From assembly GCA_007644065.1 (NCBI GenBank), contig VJWN01000017.1, positions 372,001 to 436,000 of the forward strand: a DNA stretch of 64,000 bases. The letters are read 5' to 3'. The position numbers and the translations under genes were made by a program. The notes beneath the pieces were generated by a model that saw only the letters and a program-made list of their open reading frames with translations, ran no database searches and was not told the DNA's origin. This document shows positions 3,640 to 53,382 of this stretch, piece by piece. Within the stretch, counting starts at the first letter, position 1. Each line of letters opens with the position of its first letter. Source of the stretch: Margaritispora aquatica (taxonomy: Eukaryota; Ascomycota; Leotiomycetes; Helotiales; Discinellaceae).

Positions 3640-6600
3640 TTATGATGTAGTGGATTCGTGTGTAGTTCCATAATTTTGAAGAACTGTAACATCAAAAAGC
3701 CGTGAATTTTGTATCGTGGCTCTGATTGGCAACGAATCCGGCAAAGGATTTACCTTCTGTTCAATCACTGTCGTCGCTGGCACCGTCCGTTGCGCCAAAA
3801 GTCCTCCAAAACTACGCTTCTTCGACTTCATAAGGACCGAAACATGTTGACCACCAAGCTCATCTCTGTTCTGAACCTCTCGACCAACAATTTGGTTTCG
3901 CTTTGAAGTTAGAAGCCCTAAAAATCTTCCCGAGTTCCATGTGAGGACCTGGATGCTCTCATCCGGGCGACTATCTCGTTGCAAATAACCCCTTTGATTG
4001 AGCCAAATTTTATCAGCAGAAGAGCCTGTGTGCGGGATAGAAATTTGAGTTTCAAGCACCGTAAATCCCATTGGCTTAGGCGCTGCAGAGTCGCAAGTCG
4101 CAACAGAATGACCCAGTTCCCCACTATCCAAACAATTCCCATTGACAATAGCGTAAACAGACGTGAGATGTGAGTCCTCCAGAAACCCGGCCCAACTATT
4201 CAAGTGCAAGTCCACTGGGATTGAGGACTCCCTATTCCGGTTCAGGAACGCGGCTTTAAAACCCTCTGACGATAATCCGGTCTTGTCCAGTATCTCAAGG
4301 ACGCAGCAGACGAGCTCCGCGATTTGCTTTCGGAATTTATGAAATTCCACCCAGACTTCTTCAATAGCACTGTCATGATCACTGCCAAAGGCAGCTTGAA
4401 GACTCGTCCCAAATTCTGAGGAAAGCAAATCGGGAAACTGTCGATTTATGAGAGCCTGTATGGGCTTCATAGTAAAAATATCACGCAATTTAACTCTCCT
4501 GGCATTTCCGGTGCAGTGACTGATCTCAACCCCAAGATACATATTCAGAATTCTAGGATTTGCCCGTGATGGTTGATTGGTCCATTTATTCCAGATGGCT
4601 TGTTTCTGCGTTGTGCCTGGTAACTTTTTCTGGGTTCCTAGTACGGTGATGCCCACATACTGAGAAGCTGACAAGCCAACTTGACGCTCATCGAAAGTCC
4701 ATGAGGAGGCGGCAGTGCCTAGAGGGACCATTTGTAGTCCATGGTGTCTTTCAAGGTCGTCAAGTTTGTATGTGCACGCGTCGTTGATTCTCAATCCGCT
4801 GATCAGGAGCTTTTGGTCTTTTCGGATAAGGGCATTGTCATGCATGTCTGAAAACGGCGAAGGAATGAGATCAGAGAATTTAAACCAATGGCATGGCACT
4901 GCGCCTTTGACAGGGCACTTCATCCTATCTCCGGCTTGACATATAAGCCCAGTCGAGACATTGAGTTGTCTGATATGGTTGGGATAATGTTCTCCAGCTG
5001 AAACTTCCCATACCGGTCCCCATGTATCCGCAAACGCGTCAATTGACGTCAATATTGAGAGCGGATAGTGCATAGCGCTAGAAACCTTTGGCTCAGTCCA
5101 TAGAGGCTGACAAGTCCATACTTTCTGGCAGTTGAGAAACCCATCAAGACAAGCTAGGCTCTTAAGTGAAAATCGAAAACCAATAACGGGGTTCTCGGAA
5201 TCGCCTGCTACGAGAAAAGCCGACTGGTCTAGGGCCATGTACTCAAGATCAAACCGTGAGCCGTGAGACCCCATATAGGAGACTAGCCCGATATCCAAGA
5301 GTAATGTGAGGATCCTGCACAAAACCAAAATATCATATGGAGGAATTGACCGTCCAAGAGATATGCCAAGGCTCTCCATCAGTCTCTCACAGGCAGGCAT
5401 GATGACTTCCAACAGTGTTGACGACGTGACATGATCAGCTAGGGTCCGACCACCTTTCAGAATTTTCATGACGGCGTTGGCAATCCCTTCGTGAAAGTCA
5501 ACAATGGCTTCTCTTTCGATCTGAACCATTTCTGCAATGTCTCCAGGTTCCCGTTGTATCAATATCGTGAAAGAATTGTTACAAAATCCCTTCTGCCTCA
5601 GATTTTCGATGTTATCGAGGATATGGCAAAGAATTAGATAGCTCTTTCCAAGACTCAGTCCAACGCAGATTGGGTTGTCTGATGTGCTTTGTGAGATGGA
5701 GGTGGTGGTTGAAAAATGCAGAATCTTATCGAGGCATTTCCACACCTCTAACTGGCAATGAAAGCTCTTGAAGAAGTCGTCTTCCCGTTCGATACGACAG
5801 CTGGTAGGCTCATACTTTCCATTGGACTGATAGAACTCAGATCTTTCTACAACCATCTCCTCCAGTTTGTCAAGATCTTTGTAGTGACTTTCAGGGTTGA
5901 TCAAGTAATCGTCATCGTCAAAGCTCTGGTCGACATCCGAGTCGGCGTCATGGAAATCTTGCCTGTGGCTCGAGGACTCTGGCTCACTCGGCTGGGTTGG
6001 TTCGACTGGAGACGCAGTATTTTGGAAAGAATTAGTCCGCATTGATCTGCCCTTGGATACATAAGGATCTTGTAACATCGACGTCGATATTTCCTGCCGC
6101 CTGTCGAGAGCATCCATTTCAGTTTTCATCTTGCCATACCCTAAATGCGGAGACATGCTGCTAATTCTCCCTCCATGACCTAAAGGCAGACGTTTTTGTG
6201 GGTTGTTTCTTCTGTCTCGAGTGCTAGCGTATAATTTGATTACAGTAGTCCACCTATCTACCACACTCTTTGTCTGTCCTTGGTGTAATCTCAGGCAAAG
6301 GCAGTGCCGTGCTAGTCGTGGCAGATCGTCGAGCACTTTATGAGGTGATTTTTGGGACATCAAGTTGAGCAAGTCGTGAGCTTGTACCTTTGAATCTTCA
6401 AGGATGTCCCAACGGCAGAGAACACCATCTTGATTGATACCAACACAGTAAATATCACTGCTACCTCTAGCTATATCCAAAACCACGGAGGGCTTCCAAT
6501 ACGTTTTATTGTTCTTGATATTAGGATTCAGGTTGTGAATCAAGTCCGAACTGAACACGATATCGTTAGTATATTGGCTAATAATCTCAATTTGAGGTAT

Positions 6601-8570: not shown

Positions 8571-9556
8571 TTACTCATCATCGCCAACTCTCAAGCTGCC
8601 CTCCACACCGAGTCCACGGGACCAGAAGCCATCAAGAGATTGAGCCTTGCGTCCATGAGCGAAGAGAAGCCAGAAACCGAAGACTGGCTTGGCAAGAACA
8701 TCGAGAACGGCATAAGCCATAATCTCAGCATCAACTGACCAGACACCAGCTCCTTCACCAAGACCCCAAACAATTGGGTACATGGTCCAAAGAATAAGAG
8801 TGAAGCCTCCAATGCTGGCGAAGAGCTTGGCTGTGTTGTTATCCTTGGCCATAACCGAACGACGACCTGGGACAGCGAGCTCGTAAACGATAACGAGGTA
8901 AGCAACGCAAGCCATTGCATAGTATCCCCACTTCTGTCCTGAGCTTGTACCGAATGCAGCGAACAATCCAGTGACGATCATGATGACATCGGCGACGACG
9001 GCAACCAAGATCTCAGCACCATTCAAGCCAGCCAGGAAGGCCAAGTCGAGGAGAAGGAGGGGAGTGGTGACACTCCAATCGACATAACGAGCCCAGAATA
9101 CTTGTCGGAATACGTGCTCATAGGTGTCTGGGACGTGCTTATGGGCCTCCTTGATGATCGAGTGCGAGTATGAGTTTCCATCACCGGTGGCCATGGCGAA
9201 GTATGAGATTGCAGCAAAGGTGGTGATCATAGCTGTGATAACGTGGAAGAGACGCTTTTGCTGTTTGGTCGTTAGAAATCGAATGTGCAAAGGGATTGTG
9301 CTACTTACAACTGGTACCGTCCATGCCATTGCGTAGAAAGCAAAGCTTGACAACAGCATAATCACGAAGACAACCTATTCCGAATTAGCATAGCAATGAA
9401 GCTTCAGACGTTCTTACTCACCCATAGGGTCTTCTTTCCTCCATCGCCAGCCACCTCATAGGTAGGTGGTGTTGGAACAACGGTTGGGAAGGATGTTGGA
9501 GCAAGCAACGATGAGGTTGCAGTCTTGAAAGCTTCAGCCATCTGATCTTGAATCAT
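8571..9556 (-). CDS. microbial rhodopsin, proton-pump type (CarO/LR-like)
   Basis: Three exons, complement(8571..9260, 9309..9374, 9422..9556), encode 296 residues. Both introns are clear: GTGAGT...GCTAAT...TAG and GTAAGT...TCTAAC...CAG. The product is a seven-helix retinal protein of the plasma or an internal membrane. Helix C reads RYVDWSVTTPLLLLD, giving D128 (counterion, bacteriorhodopsin D85), T132 (T89) and D139 (proton donor, D96). Helix F has WTMYPIVW (225-232), and helix G has LDVLAK with D254 and the Schiff-base lysine K258. E236 and E246 are placed like the release-group glutamates. All residues for light-driven H+ pumping are therefore present, unlike sensory or retinal-free opsin-related (YRO2/HSP30) proteins, which lack the lysine. 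An alternative start is Met6. Carotenoid genes that supply retinal are not in this window. Confidence 0.93.
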
Positions 9557-38183: not shown

Positions 38184-40397
38184 ATGCAAAGTCATTTCTG
38201 TGAGCCATGTCGATCTGTCCTAGACCTCTACACTAGACCCTTTGGACAACATGATTGCCGATTTGGACGAGAGCAAAGCTTTCGCCTTTACACATCCCAC
38301 AGTTTCGAACATAATGCCAACACAGAGGAATGTCGGTTGTGCATCCTGATCCTCTCGATGTCAACTTCGTTGCAGATTGAAGAGATGAGGGAGCAGGACT
38401 TCGAAGATCGCGTCGAGCAAGGCTATGAAAGAAAGCATCGAACCTATTTTCAGATCACTACTTACAGCGATCCGATTGAAAAAGTATTGAGGATCTGCTG
38501 AGCACGGAACTCAAATTGCAACTCTCACGGCATCAAATACTGGCTTTGCGGGGAAGTAACATTTGCTGAAGCCAGTAAGCCTCAATCTCGCTTGATATAT
38601 GTATCATATTCATAGATTTGATATAGGTAGTCGCGACCTTAAGGTTGAGAAGATTTTGGCAACCAATACCGGTCATGCCATGATCTTGAATGTGGCACAA
38701 AAATGGCTTGACCAATGCTACAAAACGCATACACTATGCCAGCCGCACAGCTCACTCAAAGCGAAATTGCCAACCCGCTTAATATGTGTTGGGCAAGAGA
38801 GGCCCATTACGCTCTGCCTTGGGGAGAATATCCCTCAAGGATCCAAGTATGCCACTCTTAGCCACAGATGGGGATTGCTAAATCCTCTTCGACTTCTCTC
38901 ATCTAACATTTGCTCCTTTATGATTGGGATTCCTCAAGAGCGGCTAGTAGAGAAGTTTCTTGATGCTATCCAAGTAACTCGTTGCTTAGGGTTAGAATAT
39001 CTCTAGATCGACTCACTATGCATTATCCAAGATTCGGTGTCAGACTGGCTAGCAGAATCAAGCGTCATGGGTCAGATATACTTGCATGCGCATATCAAAA
39101 TTGCAGGATCGACGGGCACATCATTAGGTGGGAGATTATTTTCTGATAGAGACACCAGATATCTGGAGCCTTGCACCGTGGACTATGGATCCTCACCGCC
39201 ACTGAATGGGAATCTTGATATTATTGATCGTCATCTGTGGTTTAATGCCGTGGAGAAATAATCTCTGAATTTACGTGGATGGGTGACCCAAGAGCGTTGT
39301 AAGTATTTGATGCTCTTAGAGTCAAAAACGGCTTCTTGCCCATTTTGATTTGATACGAGCTAAGACATCCTGTGGCAGATCTGTCACAACGTACGATATT
39401 CTTTACGGAAACCCAATTATTCTGGGAATGCCATGTAATGACAGCTTGCGAGCGGTTTCCAGTTGGGATGCACCCAACTATTCTTAGCAAGATGGCTGCT
39501 AAACCTAAGCAACTTGGCTTTAAGATTGATAAGTATAGCATCAACCCATTCGTTCAAGCCTACCGCGTGTGGGCCGAAATCGTATCAGTATATACAAAGG
39601 CATACTTGACTGTCAAAACTGACAAATTGATCGCTATTTCGGCCTTGGCATGGTACTTGGAAGTGAATTGCGGAGAAAGTTTAACATATCTTGCTGGACT
39701 TTGGGACAAAAACCTGACAGCACAGCTGTTGTGGAAAGGCTTCGGAGGAGCTTTCGAAAACACGATACAGGAGAAATGGCGAGCACCAAGTTGGAGCTGG
39801 GCTTCGATAGATGGGGCCATCGAAATGCCTGAGCTAATTCAGTGCTGTAAGGGAGGAGATCCCTTCGTCGAGATAAAGGACGCTTGTGTTGACTTGCTAT
39901 CACAAGACAGGTTCGGCCCTTTAACAGGAGGACGACTGCTTGTTTGCGGCCGACTAGCCTCGATCATGGTGTGTTCTTGCATGGAAGACGTGGTTGAATC
40001 TGGTTGGCGAAACCCGAAGCCTGTTTACAAAATCCTCATCAACATGGATTGCTATATCAATACAGGGGCAATGGCTTTTCCAAATTCTGACTACGAGAAT
40101 GGAGCTTGGGTCCAGGGAGTTTTCCATGACCTCTATTTCATGCCATTTAGAAAAAGACCTCGGATTACTTACGAATGGGGGATAGATTTTAACCTCGAGG
40201 GTTTAATACTGAAACGAGTGAATGGGACTATGAATAGGTTCATGAGGTGGGGATTAGGGCGGGTTAATGACACTATCGATGGAGATATTTTTGATGAGGC
40301 TTACAAGGAGTTTGAGGTTCACTGTGAGGCAAATGGTTTCATCTGGCAAAAAGGAAGTGATTCTGATTTTATCCGTTACGAAGTTACTCTCGTCTAG
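38184..40397 (+). pseudogene. HET-domain gene disabled by stops and a frame change
   Basis: HET-domain proteins trigger cell death after fusion of incompatible hyphae. The reading order is typical: a Cys-containing N-terminus (FCEPCRSVLDL), LPTRLICVG, KYATLSHRWG (family norm SHCWG), YL*IDSLCIIQDS, GWVTQER, LFWECHVMTACE and WRAPSWSWASIDGA. The frame is broken by TGA (38499-38501), by a change of frame between about 38500 and 38620, by TAG at 39004-39006 where the family has Trp (YLWIDSLCIIQD), and by TAA at 39259-39261 just before SLNLRGWVTQER. An 80-bp intron (39299-39378, GTAAGT...CAG) is still usable, and the last 340 codons are open. The two best-placed stops equal TGG to TAG and CAA to TAA, the changes produced by repeat-induced point mutation. 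A translated C-terminal fragment could still exist. Confidence 0.85.
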
Positions 40398-42358
40398 ATT
40401 TATATGAAGGTAGGCTTCATGCTGGAAGTCTGACGGTTGCGTTTGTCCTCGCGTTGAGATTGAATCTTGACTTGCGAAAGTAAATGCAAAAATTGTCATA
40501 TTGTGCCAGAACATCTTCAACTCAGTTCACAGTCCCACAAAACAGATTTGCGTGTACTTCTCCTACTACAGAGTATGATAGTTCCATGACGAAAATTCTA
40601 GGGATCACACGGTAAGGCAACGGGAAATCGTTGGTCATTAGCAGCACCGTCTCGCAAATCTTTCCAGCCTAAACTTGTGCTTAACCAGAGCTGCTCCTAT
40701 CAGCCAACTTCAAGCGATCCTGGACTATTTTCGGGATTGGAGCTCTTCCTTAATTTCTATCTCTACTTAGATAGAGAAGCCAAGTCACAACGATCTTGAA
40801 CTGCTGAGGGAGGAAGCAGAGCTCGTTAAATCAATTGGCTGCGAAGAGGGCTTGCTCGAAGACACCATTCAGATCGCTGGGCCTGACCGTGAAGATACAC
40901 CTGTTGTCGTTCTTCATCCAGCAGTCGATACGGTGTTTCGAGTCGCTTTCAAACTCGACTGAGGAGGTTTTGAGTGATGACTGCTCGAATTCGACAGGTT
41001 TCGAGGCCAAGAATTTTGTGAGGGAGGACTCAGCAGAATGCAAACGAGCACTCTGGAGGCTACTACAGAACATCTCATAAATTAGCTGATCACACGCCAA
41101 AGGCTTCTGTAACGAAAGGCTGACGAAACAGAACTAAGACTGAAGTATACAAGTAGGACCTACGCCACGAATGGAAATATCTTCCGTAAAGATAGACTTC
41201 AAACCCTTCTCTTTTGGTCATCGGGCACTGGAATTAGGATTGTTGAGCCGAACGCGCAATCTACCCAGTCTTACAATATATACATACCTTATGTATAGGT
41301 ATTAAGGATGTTCTCCTCCATCTGTGCACCTACTTCAATCATTGGGTTGTTTGCCGACATAGGTGAGCAAGACACCAACAGCAGCTGGAGTCATAGGCGG
41401 AAAAGAGACAATGGTAGGGCTGAGAGCCTAGGTCCATGATTGAGTTATGGTATTCGAAACGATCAAGAAGTGGTCTATTGCTAGTGTCGTTCCAAAAATC
41501 CGTCACATCAAACTGAGCTTATGATCGATCGAAGCATCTATCTATTGGCTGTCTTAGCATTAGAGTGATATCAACCCTCAAAAGTTCATCACAAATGGAT
41601 CCTTGGCACATGAATGATACCACCAACCAAGTGTCTAAGCAAGCTAATTTGGTTTCTCGGACAGGAACCAAAGATGACTAGCAAGTTCACCAAGTGGCGG
41701 CAGACCTGCAGGCAAATAGGCGAAGCACGTGAGGGGTATATCTCCACTCCTTCATGTGATCCTTGGTACTCAATGCAACCTCATGCGGGTCTTGTCACCG
41801 CCAAAAATTTCTACGGAGGAGGGTTCCTGAACTCAATTCCAACCTCGCACCATCTCTTCCACGTTCAGTCGCTCTCCTCTCCGATACAACGGTCGTTGGC
41901 ATATCCGTTCCGGTTGACCGTGAATTTCAAAACTTAAGCACAATCATCAAGCAACGCACGGTTCTAAAGCCGTTGAAGATTCGAGAAAGCCTCCACGTTC
42001 TCGGGCTCGGACCACGAGCTTACTGCGACGGCGTCGTCGCTATGCTTTAGCTGGTGCCATTGAGTGATGTCAAGAAGACCGCTTTGACCTCAACCCAAGC
42101 GAAATTGAGTAGAGCGGGGAAAACATATGGACATTAAGGTAAGAATAGAACGGTTTCTGTATTCTTTACGGTGTATTTTGGAGTGGAGACTCTTTTCAAA
42201 TTTGAGCGTCACAATCTGTCATCTGTTCCTGGATATTTAAGCACGCTCATTCCCACATCCAATTACACTTACCTCATCACCATACATACTCACATACACA
42301 CCAAAATTTCCAAACATTTATTCACATTCCACATCTTGTTACCGATCTCAAGCACAAT
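40398..42358. other. intergenic region
   Basis: No gene is confidently supported. Two overlapping plus-strand frames (41614-42050) and an 89-codon minus-strand frame (40831-41100, with KHRIDCWMKNDNRCIFTV) have slightly protein-like composition and could be gene remnants, but I see no domain. The last 150 bp are CA-rich and form the likely 5' UTR of the next gene. Confidence 0.4.
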
Positions 42359-45010
42359 ATGAGTGCTGTTGTTGGACGACATTATGCAGGGGGTAGTGTT
42401 GGAAGAGGAGGTAATCATACTTGGGATTCTATGAGCAATTTTGACCCAAGCTCCAACAGTAACTTCGCTAGCAGCCAAATGCAACGTGGAATCAGAGACA
42501 ACAACCAACATTCTCGCAATAGCCCTGCTGCTGCTGGTTGGGACGCTGCTGCTCAAAGATCAGGAGCTGAATACGACTCTTGGATTTACCCCGACCCATC
42601 GACCTCGTCAAGAATGGTTAAACAAGAACCGCACCCTTCCCAGGGATCTAGCGTAAAGGTTGAGCATGTTACAGGCGCAGTTATAATGACGCTCGGCGGC
42701 AGACGCGGACCTGATTCGATCCATGGCGATTCTCGTGGGTCCAGTGAAAAGGCTGAGCATGTTCAAGGCTCTACAGCAAGTGAACACGACCCTTGGATCT
42801 ACCCTGATCCATCGGCCTTAACAAGCAATCTCAATCAAGAACCACACCCTTCGCAGGGATCCAGTGTAAAGGTTGAACATGCTCCGGGTGCAATTATCAT
42901 GACTCTCGGCGGTAGACGGAATCCCGAATCGATCCATGAAGATTCCCATGAATCTAGCGTCAAAGGAGACAATCTTCCAGGCTCAAATTCAATGAACCCA
43001 AGTGGTCAAAGTAATTTTGGCCGTAATCAAGCAACTTCGACTATGGCAACAGCGACCAATGTTCCTTCAGGAAATCAACAGAAAGAAAACCTTACATCGC
43101 AGGATGCTGCTGGAACAAGGCAGATGGCCTGGGATACTGCCATCCACAATGTGATTGCCAGTCAGGAGAAGGGAAACGGTATTCAGTCAGTTTTCGATGC
43201 AGCAAGTGTCAGAGCAGCCTTTGGTGCCGGACCACTACTGGATTGGGAGCCTACCAGTGCCCAAAGTTCCACAAAAGAACCTCGAAAAACTAAGGGAGAC
43301 CTTGAATCTGTTCAAAATACATGGGATTCTCCATTGACTGGCACTATGCATGGCACGAATGACGAGAATATTAGCTGGTACCCAAATGCACGTCCTATCA
43401 TCGACGACAGAGCAGAACAATCCGAGGAGACACAGAATCATTCTTCAACCAATCAACCTCGAAAGACCGACGGAGAAGTTGAGTCTATCCAAGATGCCTG
43501 GGAATCCCTATCTGCTGGCGCAATGGACGACAAGAGTGGTGACCATATTGGGTGGTATCCGAATGCACGCCCTATAATCGGCCCAGTTCAAAACACATGG
43601 GACTCTCCATCAGTTAACGCCACAAAGGACCCGAATGAGGGCGAAAGTAACTGGCATTCAAATGCACGTCCTATAATCGATCCCAAAGGGAAACAACCCG
43701 AGATGAGTCAAGATACTTGGGATGTGGCACAATCCACACCTGGCGACTACTCTACTCAACCTTCAGGGAATTCTTGGGATTCAACGCCAGCGAAGGTAGC
43801 TGTCAGCCAACAAAATATTGCAACAACTGACGAAGCTTGGGAGACTAAATTCAACCAAGTCCCACAAACCGGTGGGTTTCAGAGTGAGTGGGATTCCACA
43901 CCAGACAATCCAACCACGCAAGAAAATCTGGAGGAGAATTCCTGGGTGGAACCTGGCCCACCTAGGGAAGAGAAGAGCAGTTGGGATATTGAAGACAATA
44001 GTGGATTTGGGTGGGATGTTCCAGAAGAATCAGAAGAAGCTGTAGGAAACTCTTGGGATATTAGTCAACCATTTCAAGAACGTCGATCCTCACGAGGTCA
44101 GTATGGCCGGCGCCCTTCTCGTGGTGGCTATAACGGGAATGGAAATGGTTTTGGAGGGTACAGAGGTGGTTATAAGAAAACGGAATTTGAGAACAACAAG
44201 ATCAGCGAATTCGGGAGCGGAGATGTGAGACGGTATTCGATTGATACTCACAACAGTGATAACAGTGTTCCTCGGACCCGAAATCAACATTACTATCCTC
44301 CCGTGAGAATCGACATGCCGCGAGGAAGACAAAACCGAGCACCAGAATTCGGTCAGATCTCAACCGAACACATTGCTCAACATCCAAAACAGCAACCTGC
44401 TCCAAATTTCGGCCCAAGCTTCCGCAGCCCACAAGTCCGAGTCAATGAGGGTACATACAATCTGGATGGTGAGATGGCCCGAGATGCGACTCCGAAACCA
44501 AGTCAAAGTATTGTCGAGAGCACTTCGCAGTATACAACCTATCCATTCTGGATGATTACAGACTCTGGGTACCACTATACCAACGACATTGACGACTTTG
44601 CCCCTCGTACCTATCTGCCTCCACCGCCAACAGGCGAGCCGCTCACCGTAGCTAAACACCCTGTTTATGGGATCGGATCCGTCGAGCTCTCTGTTCGTCG
44701 CTCCCCTCTAGACCGCGAGGTACATACCTTGGTTCTGAAGAAAGTGCTGTACATCCCGAGCGCCGAAACCAAAGGTTTTGATCCTGGTCTGCTCGGCATG
44801 CAGCACACGCAACGCAATGGTATCTTACAGGGCTTGGGTAGCAGGGCTAGAGAGGTTTGGTACGCGGATTTCTGGCGGCAGAGCCCTCGTTTGGTACTTC
44901 CTGGCGAAACGCAAAAGCAAAGCGATGCTCAGGCCTGGGCCCGGGAAAGCATGTATCCTTCAGATGTCGAGGTTGAGGTGTTGGGTGAGTGGACTGCACT
45001 GCTGAAGTGA
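42359..45010 (+). CDS. Trp-repeat, RG-rich protein with Copia-type retropepsin-like domain
   Basis: This single exon encodes 883 residues. Residues 20-570 are a disordered, polar region with about 20 regularly scattered Trp residues in contexts such as NTWDSP, NSWDST, AWESL, GWDVP and SWDIS. It includes a tandem duplication of about 73 residues (WIYPDPS...EPHPSQGSSVKVEH...IIMTLGGRR; copies near 74-128 and 147-199) and three copies of the (W)YPNARPII type. Residues about 575-605 are Arg/Gly-rich, suggesting RNA binding. Residues about 728-800 read FWMITDSGYHYTND, YGIGSVELSV and LVLKKVLYIPSAE. This is the layout of the beta-barrel/protease region of Copia (TNT1-94-like) Pol proteins (W-DSG...GIG-V-L...L-NVLYVP), with the D735-S-G triad kept. 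No integrase, RT or RNase H follows. It is probably a host gene that captured or shares this fold. Confidence 0.72.
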   Translation: MSAVVGRHYAGGSVGRGGNHTWDSMSNFDPSSNSNFASSQMQRGIRDNNQHSRNSPAAAGWDAAAQRSGAEYDSWIYPDPSTSSRMVKQEPHPSQGSSVKVEHVTGAVIMTLGGRRGPDSIHGDSRGSSEKAEHVQGSTASEHDPWIYPDPSALTSNLNQEPHPSQGSSVKVEHAPGAIIMTLGGRRNPESIHEDSHESSVKGDNLPGSNSMNPSGQSNFGRNQATSTMATATNVPSGNQQKENLTSQDAAGTRQMAWDTAIHNVIASQEKGNGIQSVFDAASVRAAFGAGPLLDWEPTSAQSSTKEPRKTKGDLESVQNTWDSPLTGTMHGTNDENISWYPNARPIIDDRAEQSEETQNHSSTNQPRKTDGEVESIQDAWESLSAGAMDDKSGDHIGWYPNARPIIGPVQNTWDSPSVNATKDPNEGESNWHSNARPIIDPKGKQPEMSQDTWDVAQSTPGDYSTQPSGNSWDSTPAKVAVSQQNIATTDEAWETKFNQVPQTGGFQSEWDSTPDNPTTQENLEENSWVEPGPPREEKSSWDIEDNSGFGWDVPEESEEAVGNSWDISQPFQERRSSRGQYGRRPSRGGYNGNGNGFGGYRGGYKKTEFENNKISEFGSGDVRRYSIDTHNSDNSVPRTRNQHYYPPVRIDMPRGRQNRAPEFGQISTEHIAQHPKQQPAPNFGPSFRSPQVRVNEGTYNLDGEMARDATPKPSQSIVESTSQYTTYPFWMITDSGYHYTNDIDDFAPRTYLPPPPTGEPLTVAKHPVYGIGSVELSVRRSPLDREVHTLVLKKVLYIPSAETKGFDPGLLGMQHTQRNGILQGLGSRAREVWYADFWRQSPRLVLPGETQKQSDAQAWARESMYPSDVEVEVLGEWTALLK
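42570..42960 (+). repeat. in-frame tandem duplication, unit about 210-220 bp
   Basis: The segment encoding DSWIYPDPS...EPHPSQGSSVKVEHVTGAVIMTLGGRR (from about 42570) recurs with mostly synonymous and conservative changes as DPWIYPDPS...EPHPSQGSSVKVEHAPG...GGRR (from about 42785). It indicates internal growth of the Trp-repeat region. Confidence 0.85.
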
Positions 45011-47090
45011 GAGGGGTTTTCTTGAAGGACTGGCTGGACTTGATTGGAGTTTCTGGATACTTTTGGGTTTGGTTTGGGCGGATATCGGAAGAGTTAGGAT
45101 GTAAGAAGATATCCCCGGGTTTGGATTTTGGGATTTCTAGGTGTTTGGATCTAGTTTGGATTCTTCGATCCGCTGGCTTCTCTATCATGTAAACATATTC
45201 TTCTCTTTAATAAGTGTAATCAAAATACAAACTCATACGGAAAGGTTACAATGCATAGCATTTAAATCAATATTCCAATCATTACTGAAAGGACTTTGTG
45301 CGACATGACTAGACTCGAATCTATGATCCGACAACCCCGTCTCTTTATCATTAGAGTGTCAAATAAGTCGGCAGCCAAATCAGCGAATATATAAACTCTT
45401 TTGATAAATTATTTAGGTAGGTATTATAAATTAAAAAGTCATTTAGCGTAAAAAAGAAAAAATTAGCGTGTGAATTAGCGAAAGCTTAAAAAGTATATAA
45501 TTTCGGAATTATATTAACACTTAGGTATAAATTTTTTTTTTGGATTTTTAGTGTTCGATTTGGCTATTGATACGCAGTTTTAGCTAGTTAAGGCCTTGAT
45601 TCCGGATAGCTAATAATTAACGCTACAAATACCTACTTTTATTCCTTTTTGGGGGGGGGGGGCGTTTTGATTCTCAATTTTCAACGCCTTATCTCGAGTA
45701 GCTAAAGCAAGACCTTCTGGGTGTCAAGTGTATGTAGTGTGATTCATTCACTAGCCATCGTCCAGATAAGTTTGTTCGTTTGATCCTTAGTATTATAGAA
45801 GTTGGAGTTGAGTCTGTTTAGGTGGGCAGTTTCTTGAATTTCCGCATTGAGAATATATCATTCTTCAACATTAAGCGTGACATTATGGATACTAGGTGTC
45901 ACAAGGTGTGCGGGGGAAGGAACAAGTAGTTTAGTCATGAGTCTGATTCATGAAGAATTAATAACTACTGTTCGGTCAAAGTCAAGGTAAGCCTGACTTC
46001 GACCTTGGAACTGCCTACGCAGGCACGGTGCGGTCACGCACCCCGTAACACTAGATATCCTTGGAATGATCGAGATGAATGTGCTACTCTTGAGCATACA
46101 GTAAGATACTCGGCCAAGATGACGGAGATTTGTTCAAAGGGTAGTCTGATTTTTGGTGATAGTATGCCTACATGGTCCGATTCGTTTTTATTTCACCTGA
46201 AGGAAGCACGATGCGAACATAAATCTTCATTGATTGCGTGATATCAATTGGCATATAAGAAGTCAATATTCTCTGCACCTGTACGCCCGCTTACTGTGAA
46301 TGTGACTTCACAAAAACCCGATTCGTTACAACCTTACCCTCATGCATATAAAGCGGGCCTAACACTTTTTCGAAGCCAGGCTTTGGCTATTTCATGATCC
46401 AATACGCGCAATTGCATTAATTATGTGATGTGAATGGCGGGACCACGCTTGTCGTGTCATGAGGTGGACCTACCAATCATCACGCCCCTGCAAGTTTCTG
46501 AAGCAAAATCCCAATTTCTGAATATTCGGTTAAAGTCAAGAGCCAGCACAGGGTCAGAAATGTATGAACCTGGGAAGCAAAAATAGGCTACAACAATCAG
46601 ATGAGTTTTCTTCGTATGACAGCAGCATGTCAACTTTTATCCTAGTTGATCTTGAGGATTTGCAAAGGTAAAGGGATGTGGCTGCTACTTTCCCACAAAA
46701 AAAATAGACTTCTCAAGTAGGAAATATTATCCACGAAGGAGAAGATCTCTCCACCTTTTGTTTGCCAATGGCAGACATCATAAGATACATCTCCATACTT
46801 CACTGCTGATGTTGTAACGAAAATGTAACCTTGACCGCGGTGCACCTTTCATATTAATCGAACAAAAGAGATGAGTCCCGAGCTGTATGAAATTTGAATC
46901 ACATCATGATATGATGTTAATCACACGTCCATGCTTGACGCCTCTGTGGGTTGATGATTTGCGTGCCACGGTTTAGTCGAACTTGCGGATATATAATTTC
47001 ACATTATCGTGTCGTTGAGCATCCGTTCAGAACTAATAAACATCATCACAAAACAATCCATTATTCACAATACAAGCCTCTCAAGTGACT
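45011..47090. other. intergenic region with an AT-rich degenerate block
   Basis: From about 45400 to 45680 the DNA is strongly AT-rich, with three TTAGCG words, A- and T-tracts and a run of about 12 G near 45650-45661. A short inverted pair GTAGGTATT / AATACCTAC lies at 45417-45425 and 45628-45636. It looks like a decayed repeat. The rest (45700-46980) holds no supported gene. The promoter of the next gene is at the right end. Confidence 0.5.
46990..46996 (+). promoter_or_regulatory. TATA-like box of the 47.1-kb gene
   Basis: TATATAA stands 95 bp before the ATG at 47091, followed by a CA-rich leader, a normal spacing for a fungal core promoter. It was assigned by position only. Confidence 0.4.
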
Positions 47091-48819
47091 ATGGCTACCT
47101 ACAAGCTCATCATCTACATTGACGAAACACTTATCAATTCCTCCCCCGTTCAAGTGGGGAACCTCGTCTTTGCCCGAGTAGTCAACGGAGAATCCAACGT
47201 TGTGTTCCAGAGCAAGGGAACTAAAGACTTATCTGCTGTCAATATCTTGAGCTGGAAGCAGTCCTACCAAATCAGTGCTACCCAAGATTTAAAGGAGGGT
47301 GCAATGGTAAGCCCGATTTCTCAGAAATTTCCTCCTGGCCTCCTCTTTTAGTTGGAGGGCTTAGTTCAAGACAAGCTATTAATATCAGAGCAGATCACAG
47401 CCGGTACCTCCATGCGGAATATTGCTGCAGATACAATATGTGATTGGACCCCAAAGGAGGGTGAAGTAATCCGTAATATGCCCAATGCTACGAAGGCTCC
47501 CCTAGGCTGGAAGCCACTAGGTTCGTTTGGAACGCTCAACATGCCCAAAGAATGGAAGAACCAAATTTGGTGCGCCACCGGTACTGGGGCTTATAGTTGT
47601 ATCTTTGCCGATGTCAATCCCATCCCTGGGGAGACTCATCGGTCTTATCTTGTTGAAAATAACTACCAGGTGAGGTATATCCTGTCATTGAGCGGTCCTC
47701 TAGCTGACATTAAATTAGCTTAATTGGAGCACTGAACTTAAATCTGCGAGTGTTTTGTACACATCCTGGTCAGATGCTTACACAGTGGAGTATGGACCTC
47801 GTGAAACGGTTAAGTGGGTCAGTTGGGTAGGCTCTTCTTTCCTTTGTTTTATAAATAATGAAGGCTGATGGTTTGTAGGGGTATGAGGTTGCTGGTGAGG
47901 GCGAACCAAGATGGTTTGTTTATGCATCCGATCCATCAGCACACAATCCAGCCAAGGAAGTTATTATCAAAGAAAATTCGTCTGGGGGTCCGGTAAAGCC
48001 ACACAGTTATGGCATTCCGGTTCATTTCGAGTACAACTACGCCGACGATGCCATGTTGAGCTCCATTGGTGCTAAATCATGTGCAAAAAATCTGGGATTA
48101 TTTTTGGAAAGCTCAAGTCCCCAATACCTGTCCGTATCATTGCATCCTTCATCCTTCATCCTTCATCTGACTTCTCTCTCTCTCTCAATCTACTAACTTG
48201 CTACCACAGCAACTGCTCGGTTGACTCGATTTTCCCCAAAACATCAGTCACTGCTCGTTTAGATCTACTGTCGCCATGCTATGATCTTCTCCATGGAGAC
48301 ACAGCATTGGAGAAGACCATCTGCGCAGTACAGAGTCTCATGAAGGGGCTGTCGGTAAAATATCTTCCATTCTCGGAGACCATCAGCTTCAGATCTCGCC
48401 AAACTCTACCTACCCCTGACCCGGGATCTAATTCAGATGATGAGCTGGAGGGAAAAAGAGGTGTCGGCAAGATCTACAGGTACTTCAAGGGAAAGCTCAC
48501 TTGGACAGGTGGACTCGGCAGACAAAACTGGGGAGATATCGCTTCGATGATCAACCAGTACTTCGCTGCTAACACAAACTTTGTCATGGACCAGCCTACC
48601 TTCGGCGGTGGCAACATAACAATGCTTCTTCCTTTCAAAACCGCGCCTGGTGGTGAGGTTGGAACTGACATTGCGGACCAGGCTTGGAACATGGCCTATA
48701 GCAAACTCGAACAGAACTTGAGGACTCAGTTGACAAATGATGGAGCTGAAGTTGACGCTTCCCCGCCTGCAGACAACCCCCAGCCAAAAGGTTACTCAAA
48801 CGGTTTTAATGGCATCTAA
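47091..48819 (+). CDS. five-exon protein of unknown function
   Basis: The exons join(47091..47306, 47352..47669, 47719..47826, 47879..48129, 48210..48819) give 500 residues; every phase closes. Introns use GTAAGC, GTGAGG, GTAGGC and GTCCGT donors; the last has a clear ACTAAC branch and CACAG acceptor but a weak donor. The protein begins MATYKLIIYIDETLINSS without a signal peptide. It is rich in short beta-strand-like segments and Trp (for example GTFGTLNMPKEW-type and WFVYASDPSAHNP stretches), suggesting a cytosolic beta-sandwich. The C-terminal part has FKGKLTWTGGLGRQNWGDIA, FGGGNITMLLPFK and an Asn/Pro tail. I do not recognise the family; a lectin- or aegerolysin-like fold is only a guess. 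Residues encoded around the fourth junction (48129/48210) are the least certain. Confidence 0.6.
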
Positions 48820-49785: not shown

Positions 49786-51051
49786 TCAATAAATCCACTC
49801 ATAGTCTGGCAGAGGGAATGCCTTTGTGTCCGCAAACGCCCCCCCAAGATATCTCTGCAGGAATTCTGCTATCCCCGTCCACGCGATGAAGGCAAACACA
49901 TGGTTTCTCAGCCATATTCCCCACGCCGTTTGTGGACCCAGAATTGTTGAAACGAGAGGTGGGATAATCTGCAGTTCCTTGATGATAGGCCGCATTTGCT
50001 GCTCATAGCCTTGGAGTCCTGCCGCAAGATCACCACTGTGCTTTGCAAGCTCTCCAGCTAGCATATAGGCGCCTGTAAGAGCAAGACTTGTCCCGCCTCC
50101 TGTCGGACCAGCTGCGTAACCTGCGTCACCGACCATTACAAACCTCCCTTTGAACAGACTTGGAACCTTGACCTGCACGATCTCGCTAGCGTACAAGTCT
50201 TTCGAACTCATCATCTCTTGCAGCACGAAATCGGTCTTCCACCCCACACCGCGATATAGCTGGGTGATATACCCCTTGAGTGCATCATTGCCTGCTTTCA
50301 CGGCCTGGCGAAAAGGCAGCGTGGCGTCGCGTTTGTCCTTGGGTTGGAATGCCATCAACATAATTCGGCTGAAGCCTGCTGGGTCTGATCCAATGCTGAC
50401 CGAACGACCACCTACGGCGCTGAATCCGTGGCCTATCTTGCTTCCTTGAAGGAGGTCTTGCTCGATGGAGAAGTAAGCTGCCCAGATGTTGGTTGGGTGG
50501 ATGTGGTCCCAGACGCTGCACTCGAGACCCATAGCTCGTGTTCGTGATGTTGCACCGTCACATGCAACTACGAGGTCGTACTCTGAGGTTTTTGTTCCGT
50601 TGGCAAATTCAATGGTGATAGGACCAGTCTCAGATTCACTGTATTTGATGGACGCAATTTGCTCTCCAAAGATGTACTTGATGTTTTCATTGTCCTTTGT
50701 GAAGTTGTATAGGATCCTCGAAAGGTCGCCCCGATAGATTTCGAACTCGGAAATGAGGGACTGTTGATCCGGATTCCCGGTCGCTCTGATGATTCCATAG
50801 GGTCGTCCATCATCTCGAACAAAACAAACACCTTCTTCTTGAGTCGACTTCGCCCTCACTTGAGCCTCCATACCTGCCGTCTTGCGCATGACGGAAACCC
50901 CGGCAGTACGGATGTCTACCGCTTGCCCACCAGTGCGTAGTTCGGAGAACCGCTCGATGACAGTGACTTTAGCACCAGCCTTTGCTAACCAGTAAGCTGT
51001 TGCTGGGCCGGCAATGGATGCCCCGACTACTAAGACGTTCAACCCGGACAT
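49786..51051 (-). CDS. FAD-dependent monooxygenase (PHBH-like)
   Basis: This single exon encodes 421 residues. The Rossmann motif is VVGASIAGPATAYWLAKAG (8-26) with VIERF ending the second strand. The DG motif is VVACDGATSRTRAMG and the second FAD motif is FVMVGDAGYAAGPTGGGTSLAL, so all three flavin signatures of class A hydroxylases are intact. It most resembles the fungal and bacterial group of small-molecule ring hydroxylases. A hydrophobic C-terminal stretch (LRNHVFAFIAWTGIAEFL) may be a membrane-associating helix. It is divergently transcribed from the questin-oxidase-like gene with an 820-bp shared upstream region, so co-regulation is possible. The substrate is unknown; an aromatic or polyketide compound is plausible from the neighbour. 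Confidence 0.9.
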   Translation of the reverse strand: MSGLNVLVVGASIAGPATAYWLAKAGAKVTVIERFSELRTGGQAVDIRTAGVSVMRKTAGMEAQVRAKSTQEEGVCFVRDDGRPYGIIRATGNPDQQSLISEFEIYRGDLSRILYNFTKDNENIKYIFGEQIASIKYSESETGPITIEFANGTKTSEYDLVVACDGATSRTRAMGLECSVWDHIHPTNIWAAYFSIEQDLLQGSKIGHGFSAVGGRSVSIGSDPAGFSRIMLMAFQPKDKRDATLPFRQAVKAGNDALKGYITQLYRGVGWKTDFVLQEMMSSKDLYASEIVQVKVPSLFKGRFVMVGDAGYAAGPTGGGTSLALTGAYMLAGELAKHSGDLAAGLQGYEQQMRPIIKELQIIPPLVSTILGPQTAWGIWLRNHVFAFIAWTGIAEFLQRYLGGAFADTKAFPLPDYEWIY

Positions 51052-51870: not shown

Positions 51871-53382
51871 ATGTTTTCATCAAAAGCCTTGAGCTCCTTC
51901 TGCCAACCAAAGGTAAGCTTTCGAGGTTTCACCGTAGTCCGATCTTTGGCGGCAGCTCCTAGCTTTCAGAAACGGCATATATCCACCAACAATATGGCTA
52001 CACCAAGCAAAATACACCTCACAGTTGACAATATCGGGATTGTGAAGGTTAAAGCTCAGACAGAAGAATCAGCACGCTTGATATCTAAACTGCTTCAAGA
52101 AAATCATGATGTAAGGTAGAAATCGAGATTCTAAACTTCGACTAACGTGTGACAGAAACACCACATTTACTTCAATCCGTCTGGGTTTCATAACCATATT
52201 GCTCATCAGCTTCTTTCACTTTATGGAGTTGGTGCCCCATCCTCGATTATGCAAAAACAATACGATGCCAATGTCACCTACCAACGTCCAATTGTTCAGA
52301 CTAAGATACAGCGTGAGCTCGATATGAGCAATCCCGCAAAATTTAAGACGTGCCTTGGGAAACAACAATACTATCACGACTTCTTGATCTTTTTTCGAAA
52401 AGAGATGGACGCGAAAGGGTGGCAAGATGTGCTTAATGAATATGTCTTTTCGGGAAGCGAAGAAGCAGATGATATGCTTGGTAGGATGTATGCTGGCTTC
52501 TTACATCCTATTATTCACCTCGGATTTGGCATCGAGTTCGGCCAGCCAGCAATCATGGCTGAAGCCCTAGCCCAAGCAGCAATTCACGACACCTGGACGA
52601 AGGATTTCCTCTTGAACCTCGAAACAGCAGCTGCTACACGACCACCAACAACACCTAAAACCATGCCCGAACTCCTGGACGACATTAGAGCAGATAAGAA
52701 ACTCTCGATGGCGGCAGATTGGAATGACAACAACAAAGTTCGAGACGGCGTCCTCAAGAGAGCATCATACGAGATGTCAAAATATGCACTTGCATGGGCT
52801 CCCACGGCAGAGAATCTAGAGCAGAAAACAGTTGAGATGACCAATGCCAATATTTACTTTTCAGCTTGCGCCCAATCACCACCCAAACAGATCAAATTCG
52901 ACTTCTACTACATCCATTGTCTCAATTGCAGCATATTCTTTCCTACCTTCAACTCCCAGACCTGGCTGAGCACCGAGAACAAAGTCCGAATGCTAAAATT
53001 CAAGGGCTGGAGTGATCTCGCTTTATACGCATCACGTAGATCCCCGGAGCTCCTCATAGACGAGATCATAAATTATGTACCCATGAAGCCAGATGATAAC
53101 GATGCGAAATGGCCGGGCATCTTCAGGCGTCTGTGTGAACTTGACGATGATGACGGGCACGCGGTAAAACTTGGGAGAGCTGTGAGAAATGGTCAGTTAA
53201 TCACCGACGCATGGATCAAGAGTGGTGGAAATGAGGAAGAGGTGAGGATCAAGAGTGATATGTGGGAAAAGATTGGCAATATGGTTATTGACTCTGTGGA
53301 GAGCCCTGGGGAGCATTGGGTGAGAAGTGCGGGATTCAAGCAGGCTTGGGACAAGTATGAGGATCGTCCTGAAAGAGCATAA
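51871..53382 (+). CDS. questin-oxidase-like protein (DUF4243 family)
   Basis: Two exons, join(51871..52110, 52156..53382), encode 488 residues. The 45-bp intron has GTAAGG, GACTAAC and GACAG and joins QENHD to KHHIYFN. The protein matches the questin oxidase/AflY-like family, which performs Baeyer-Villiger-type ring opening in fungal polyketide pathways. Visible family segments are HHIYFNPSGFHNHIAHQLL, YDANVTYQRP, FLHPIIHLGFGIEFGQPAI and NIYFSACAQSPPKQIKFDFY. The His residues in HHIYF, FHNHIAHQ and HPIIHLG are conserved candidates for the active site. A first Met at 51799, this one (MFSSKALSSFCQPKVSF) and 51994 (MATPSKIHLTVD) are all in frame. The second gives a basic, acid-free N-terminus resembling a mitochondrial presequence; the third matches family starts. 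No polyketide synthase is nearby. Confidence 0.87.

Follow-up and report, generated by a model that had tools for sequence, protein, structure and literature searches.

The window, the whole 64,000-nucleotide stretch of DNA analysed here, carries at 42359..45010 an open frame of 883 codons that begins with ATG and contains no internal stop; it is on the forward strand, as are all features below unless stated, and was treated as a single exon from the DNA sequence alone. A search of the genome (42,362,790 bases in 49 contigs) returns a single match to this frame, which is the frame itself. No reverse transcriptase, integrase or RNase H family is detected in it by Pfam, and none of the 29 genome matches to RVT_2 falls within the window, in agreement with the first-pass annotation, which had reported the absence of these enzymes. 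The single copy and the lack of RVT_2 in the window make this locus look like a host gene rather than a transposon. A weak match to RmlD_sub_bind at residues 321-370 (14.2-14.8 bits against a cut-off of 27) is taken as chance.

A bacteriorhodopsin-like opsin gene (PF01036, 139 bits) lies at 8571-9365 on the reverse strand, and a gene resembling FAD-dependent monooxygenases (49786-51051, reverse strand) adjoins a questin-oxidase-like gene (52249-53382, 329 bits); this pair perhaps belongs to a secondary-metabolite locus. At about 45897-46050, some 140-155 bp have genome copies of 84% (C47) and 77% (C17) identity and are perhaps a small dispersed repeat. No tRNA is found in the 64-kb window, and no Rfam family in its 40000-47500 section.

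The amino-terminal two thirds of the protein form a scaffold (residues 1-570) in which S, G, P, N, D, E and Q are abundant and which is judged to be disordered by this composition alone. It holds 20 tryptophans, all within residues 22-566, and a further five follow in residues 731-878. This is the Trp-rich disordered chain described previously, and the motifs quoted for it (NTWDSP, NSWDST and GWDVP) are all found. The placement of the tryptophans is beyond chance: 14 of the 20 are followed directly by Asp or Glu, compared to an expectation of 2.8, the mean of 20,000 shuffles of residues 1-570 that never gave more than 10. In addition, the 15 tryptophans of residues 296-566 (43244..44056) are spaced more evenly than random (mean 19.3 residues, SD 7.4; P 0.0001). 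The scaffold is followed by an RG/G-rich patch at residues 575-606 (44081..44176), again as annotated, though a modest one with three RG dipeptides, two of which are RGG (at 588 and 602). Judging from its composition, this patch may hold RNA or RNP. A gag origin of the scaffold is rejected because the 883-residue protein contains no cysteine at all and therefore no gag zinc knuckle.

Two internal duplications reveal how the scaffold has been constrained. The first is the in-frame tandem duplication noticed earlier (211-nucleotide copies, 74% identity, spacing 213), with one copy at residues 69-139 (42563..42775), running from YDSWIYPDP through QEPHPSQGSSVKVEH to GAVIMTLGGRR, and the other at residues 140-210 (42776..42988). 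The second, an additional unit of 137 nucleotides (72% identity, spacing 177), occupies residues 304-348 (43268..43402), which end in WYPNARPII, and residues 363-407 (43445..43579). When the copies within this one gene are compared with each other, the tandem pair gives a dN of 0.22 and a dS of 0.89 (dN/dS 0.25; Fisher p 1.5e-5) and the second unit a dN of 0.26 and a dS of 0.94 (dN/dS 0.28; Fisher p 0.0014), while three shorter repeat pairs give dN/dS values of 0.35-0.59; these estimates cover the internal scaffold repeats. The stretches best kept between the tandem copies are WIYPDPS, QEPHPSQGSSVKVEH and IMTLGGRR, and a D[SP]WIYP motif is kept in both, as DSWIYP and DPWIYP. With dN/dS at 0.25 and 0.28 between copies, the scaffold is evidently real coding sequence, whose units stayed under constraint at the protein level long after they were duplicated. 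The suggestion that the scaffold is still growing does not hold, since the duplicated units, the tandem one included, are old by their dS of about 0.9.

The tandem region also contains three SUMO-type sites, at residues 87 (VKQE), 99 (VKVE) and 170 (VKVE), within window positions 42620-42880 (residues 87-173). The nonapeptide QGSSVKVEH is identical in both copies despite the dS of about 0.9, and the V-K-x-E within it we take to be a SUMO-type pattern.

The carboxy-terminal tail contains a domain that resembles Copia-type retropepsins (residues 731-822, ends approximate; 44549..44824), delimited by profile comparisons. Pol_BBD (PF22936) is the only Pfam family that matches residues 700-883 at E values up to 10, and it does so below its cut-off of 27 bits, with 15.8 bits (E 0.018 over 24,736 models) for these residues and 12.6 bits for the whole protein. 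Conversely, a search of the genome with the Pol_BBD family does not list this gene even at E values up to 10; it finds 18 other places, 17 of them above the cut-off. A trimmed, Copia-only profile, built from five open stretches of the same genome and six database proteins with the query left out, matches residues 765-804 (44651..44770; GIGSVELSV ... VLKKVLYIPS) with a score of 37.8 (P 8.6e-6), as against maxima of 21.3 for 300 shuffles and 29.9 for 62 control pieces from the remaining frames of the window, whether these are coding or not. When the alignment is left untrimmed, about 90 residues are matched, the DSG triad among them, though with lower confidence (probability 43%, P 2.5e-4). The triad lies outside the locally matched half and is in register within this longer alignment; the chance of a D[ST]G falling within five places is estimated at 0.003. 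The tail is thus well supported as a statistically visible, predicted relative of Copia-type retropepsins, as the first-pass annotation had recognized.

The composition of the frame changes just ahead of this domain. The GC3 is 0.39 up to codon 718 and 0.58 thereafter (permutation p 0.0006), a step that lies 13 codons before the domain and marks a seam at the domain start. The GC3 of either part is normal for the window, since eleven other window frames span 0.40 to 0.66. Past the change point (residues 719-883, 44513..45007) the frame stays open over 165 codons, and only 19 of 20,000 shuffles are equally open. The seam after codon 718 and the absence of the other element genes support the earlier suggestion that a Pol fragment was joined to the Trp scaffold, and the tail can be read as a piece of a Copia protease that became fused to a host scaffold long ago; that the predicted domain is Copia-derived and fused in this way is, in our estimation, probable.

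An alternative is that the tail is a small beta domain of host origin, which shares DSG, GIG and VLYIP with the Copia proteins by chance. In its favor are the Pol_BBD score below the Pfam cut-off, the score of 29.9 that an unrelated 184-residue window-frame piece reaches on the same profile, and the outcome of AlphaFold, which gives no confident fold either for residues 721-842 as a single sequence (pLDDT 34.2, very low confidence) or for residues 714-866 with six database Copia proteins (seven sequences; pLDDT 40.3, very low confidence). Against it, the tail outscores all the shuffles and all the window controls, the DSG is in register and the GC3 seam coincides with the domain start, and we consider a host origin of the tail unlikely.

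The top-scoring control is a piece of a 972-residue frame at 3640-6558 on the reverse strand, which has no Pfam family. It matches the first half of the profile only and has D-I-G in place of DSG, and its resemblance to the profile is probably due to chance. Elsewhere in the genome, a Copia remnant (L007:751-1827) has an open frame of 359 residues that includes a Pol_BBD domain (66.8 bits) as well as a CCHC-like knuckle; this frame stops shortly past Pol_BBD, and an RVT_2 match with one stop follows about 2 kb on.

The D735-S-G triad (44561..44569), which occupies the position of the catalytic triad, is indeed kept and is the only DSG in the protein (residues 735-737). The residues around it are altered. 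In the 11 aligned Copia sequences the triad is preceded by L or M and followed by A (six), S (four) or V (one); here the preceding residue is Thr and the following one Tyr. Two residues are missing directly after DSG relative to the same sequences, and a His is found at D+4, compared to D+6 in 10 of the 11. These features bear on whether the tail could be a working aspartic protease with the scaffold or its clients as substrates. The intact triad speaks for such an enzyme; the Tyr, the two-residue loss and the Thr before the Asp, each of them absent from all 11 aligned Copia sequences, speak against it and make an active protease improbable. Given the altered turn that follows DSG, a loss of cutting is the likelier outcome, and, provided that the domain is Copia-derived and fused to a host scaffold, the predicted barrel is quite likely non-catalytic.

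What the tryptophans bind is a separate question. The first-pass annotation had pointed to Argonaute-type pockets, and in such a reading the motifs would dock into PIWI domains and the protein would serve RNA silencing. In favor of this proposal, four loci in the genome contain a Piwi domain, although in two of these the six-frame match is interrupted by in-frame stops; the flanks of the tryptophans are small and polar, and the spacing across the 20 scaffold tryptophans (10-112 residues) agrees with the TNRC6 site, in which Trp residues lie ten or more apart (PMC9262622). The details do not fit: Gly precedes only three of the 20 tryptophans and follows none, and the following residue is acidic in 14. 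The pocket itself was compared in two of the four Argonautes (L021 and L022, with L023 and L024 left out), and in each of them none of the four equivalents of hAGO2 590, 659, 660 and 695 is kept. These positions (P590/F659/K660/E695) were matched by a constant offset of 143, with all four letters agreeing, to P733/F802/K803/E838 of the C. elegans ALG-1, pocket residues shown to matter there (PMC5147811). Of the nine positions examined in L021 and L022, R688 and C691 alone are conserved; in place of F653 stands another aromatic residue, Tyr or Trp. Docking to Argonaute is thereby weakened, and we regard it as very improbable.

Not9 of the CCR4-NOT complex may be a better docking candidate than Argonaute. 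It is found in the genome, and three of the four published CNOT9 pocket residues (Y203, R205, H208 and R244; PMC11009413) are kept, namely Y203, R205 and R244, while H208 is replaced by Ala; the spacing of Y-x-R-x-x-H served to fix the residue numbers. The disordered region of S. pombe Puf3 is reported to contact Ccr4-Not by way of a DFWIP motif, and the same source describes the pocket residues of Not9 as being, in many cases, invariant across the eukaryotes (PMC12819147). The D[SP]WIYP of both tandem copies resembles this DFWIP. Not9 is placed foremost among the candidate partners because its pocket is kept at three of four positions and because DSWIYP and DPWIYP resemble the Puf3 motif. The reading is limited by the fact that Trp pockets are common, permissive docking sites and that H208 is lost, and docking of the CCR4-NOT type by these motifs would be rather doubtful as a specific claim.

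The Trp-acidic motifs may instead serve another partner, for instance autophagy, endocytic or motor adaptors, with the tail acting only as a dimeriser. Several known adaptors use Trp beside acidic residues, and the acidic residue that follows 14 of the 20 tryptophans counts for this alternative. Textbook matches are few, however: one WESL at a scaffold Trp (381) and one LDWE at 294, which we take to be an LIR-like and a kinesin-type W-acidic motif, respectively. Such a partner is possible, though less likely than not.

Taken together, we favor, with a rough probability of 0.4, a host gene that would combine a Trp-acidic scaffold and an RG patch with an old, divergent and non-cutting Copia-type domain, and that would act as a multivalent adaptor linked to RNA decay. 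An old Copia-type protease piece would have become fused to the disordered Trp scaffold, and the predicted domain would have lost cutting and been retained for pairing or peptide binding. Retropepsins act as dimers, and the predicted barrel may likewise pair two chains. The RG patch would hold RNA or RNP, and aromatic pockets in the mRNA-decay machinery would receive the Trp motifs, with Not9 as a better candidate than Argonaute. In its most specific form, this adaptor reading would have a Copia protease converted to a dimerisation barrel that no longer cuts, and the barrel would give a Trp-acidic, RNA-linked scaffold twice the valency for recruiting CCR4-NOT; this form is speculative and has low odds. 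If true, it would show a fungus reusing a transposon part in mRNA decay by a new route; if confirmed, the locus would provide a case of a Copia-type protease fused to a multivalent Trp scaffold, and Not9 would be its candidate partner.

Relatives were sought in collections of prokaryote, virus and metagenome proteins, in which fungal sequence is sparse. Within these collections, protein searches with residues 650-883 and with residues 1-883 (7,997 candidates scored) find no orthologue, and neither do searches of viral contigs and prokaryote genomes. A protein search with a mixed alignment returns six proteins, four with precomputed PF22936 and none of them a recognisable orthologue. Sequence searches of the PDB with the protein and with the Copia alignment give no match, nor does a search of NCBIfam. 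Because fungal sequence is so sparse in these collections, the absence of relatives is no evidence for an orphan gene. Presumably many fungal proteins in public databases are named after the Pol_BBD beta-barrel domain, and relatives may already be among them. In a literature search that was far from exhaustive, no title or abstract found describes a Copia-type protease kept within a fungal host protein; the Pol_BBD domain is named in one paper, on a plant genome.

Comparison with known systems helps to place this gene. Like the Pol_BBD family, the tail has the DSG, a G-x-G strand and a V-x-Y-x-P strand in the same order and at rough spacing; it differs in scoring below the cut-off, in the Tyr that follows DSG and the loss of two residues at this place, and in five additional residues after VLYIPS-AET. 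Unlike a Copia retrotransposon, the gene has no gag zinc knuckle, integrase or RT/RNase H. It shares with GW182/TNRC6 a disordered chain with many tryptophans at least ten residues apart, but here the tryptophans precede Asp or Glu rather than being flanked by Gly, and the partner pocket residues are changed in the two Argonautes checked. The likeness to S. pombe Puf3 lies in the Trp motifs of a disordered region, in the D[SP]WIYP that resembles DFWIP and in the kept residues of Not9 pocket 1, whereas a Pfam search of the frame finds neither PUF repeats nor any other RNA-binding domain. To our knowledge, retroelement proteases in host use come mostly from animals and are Gypsy- or retrovirus-type enzymes. 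The mammalian ASPRV1, a domesticated retropepsin, is one in which a piece of retroelement protease is retained in a host gene, as proposed here; ASPRV1 is an active enzyme of the Gypsy/retrovirus type, whereas the predicted domain described here is of the Copia type and probably inactive.
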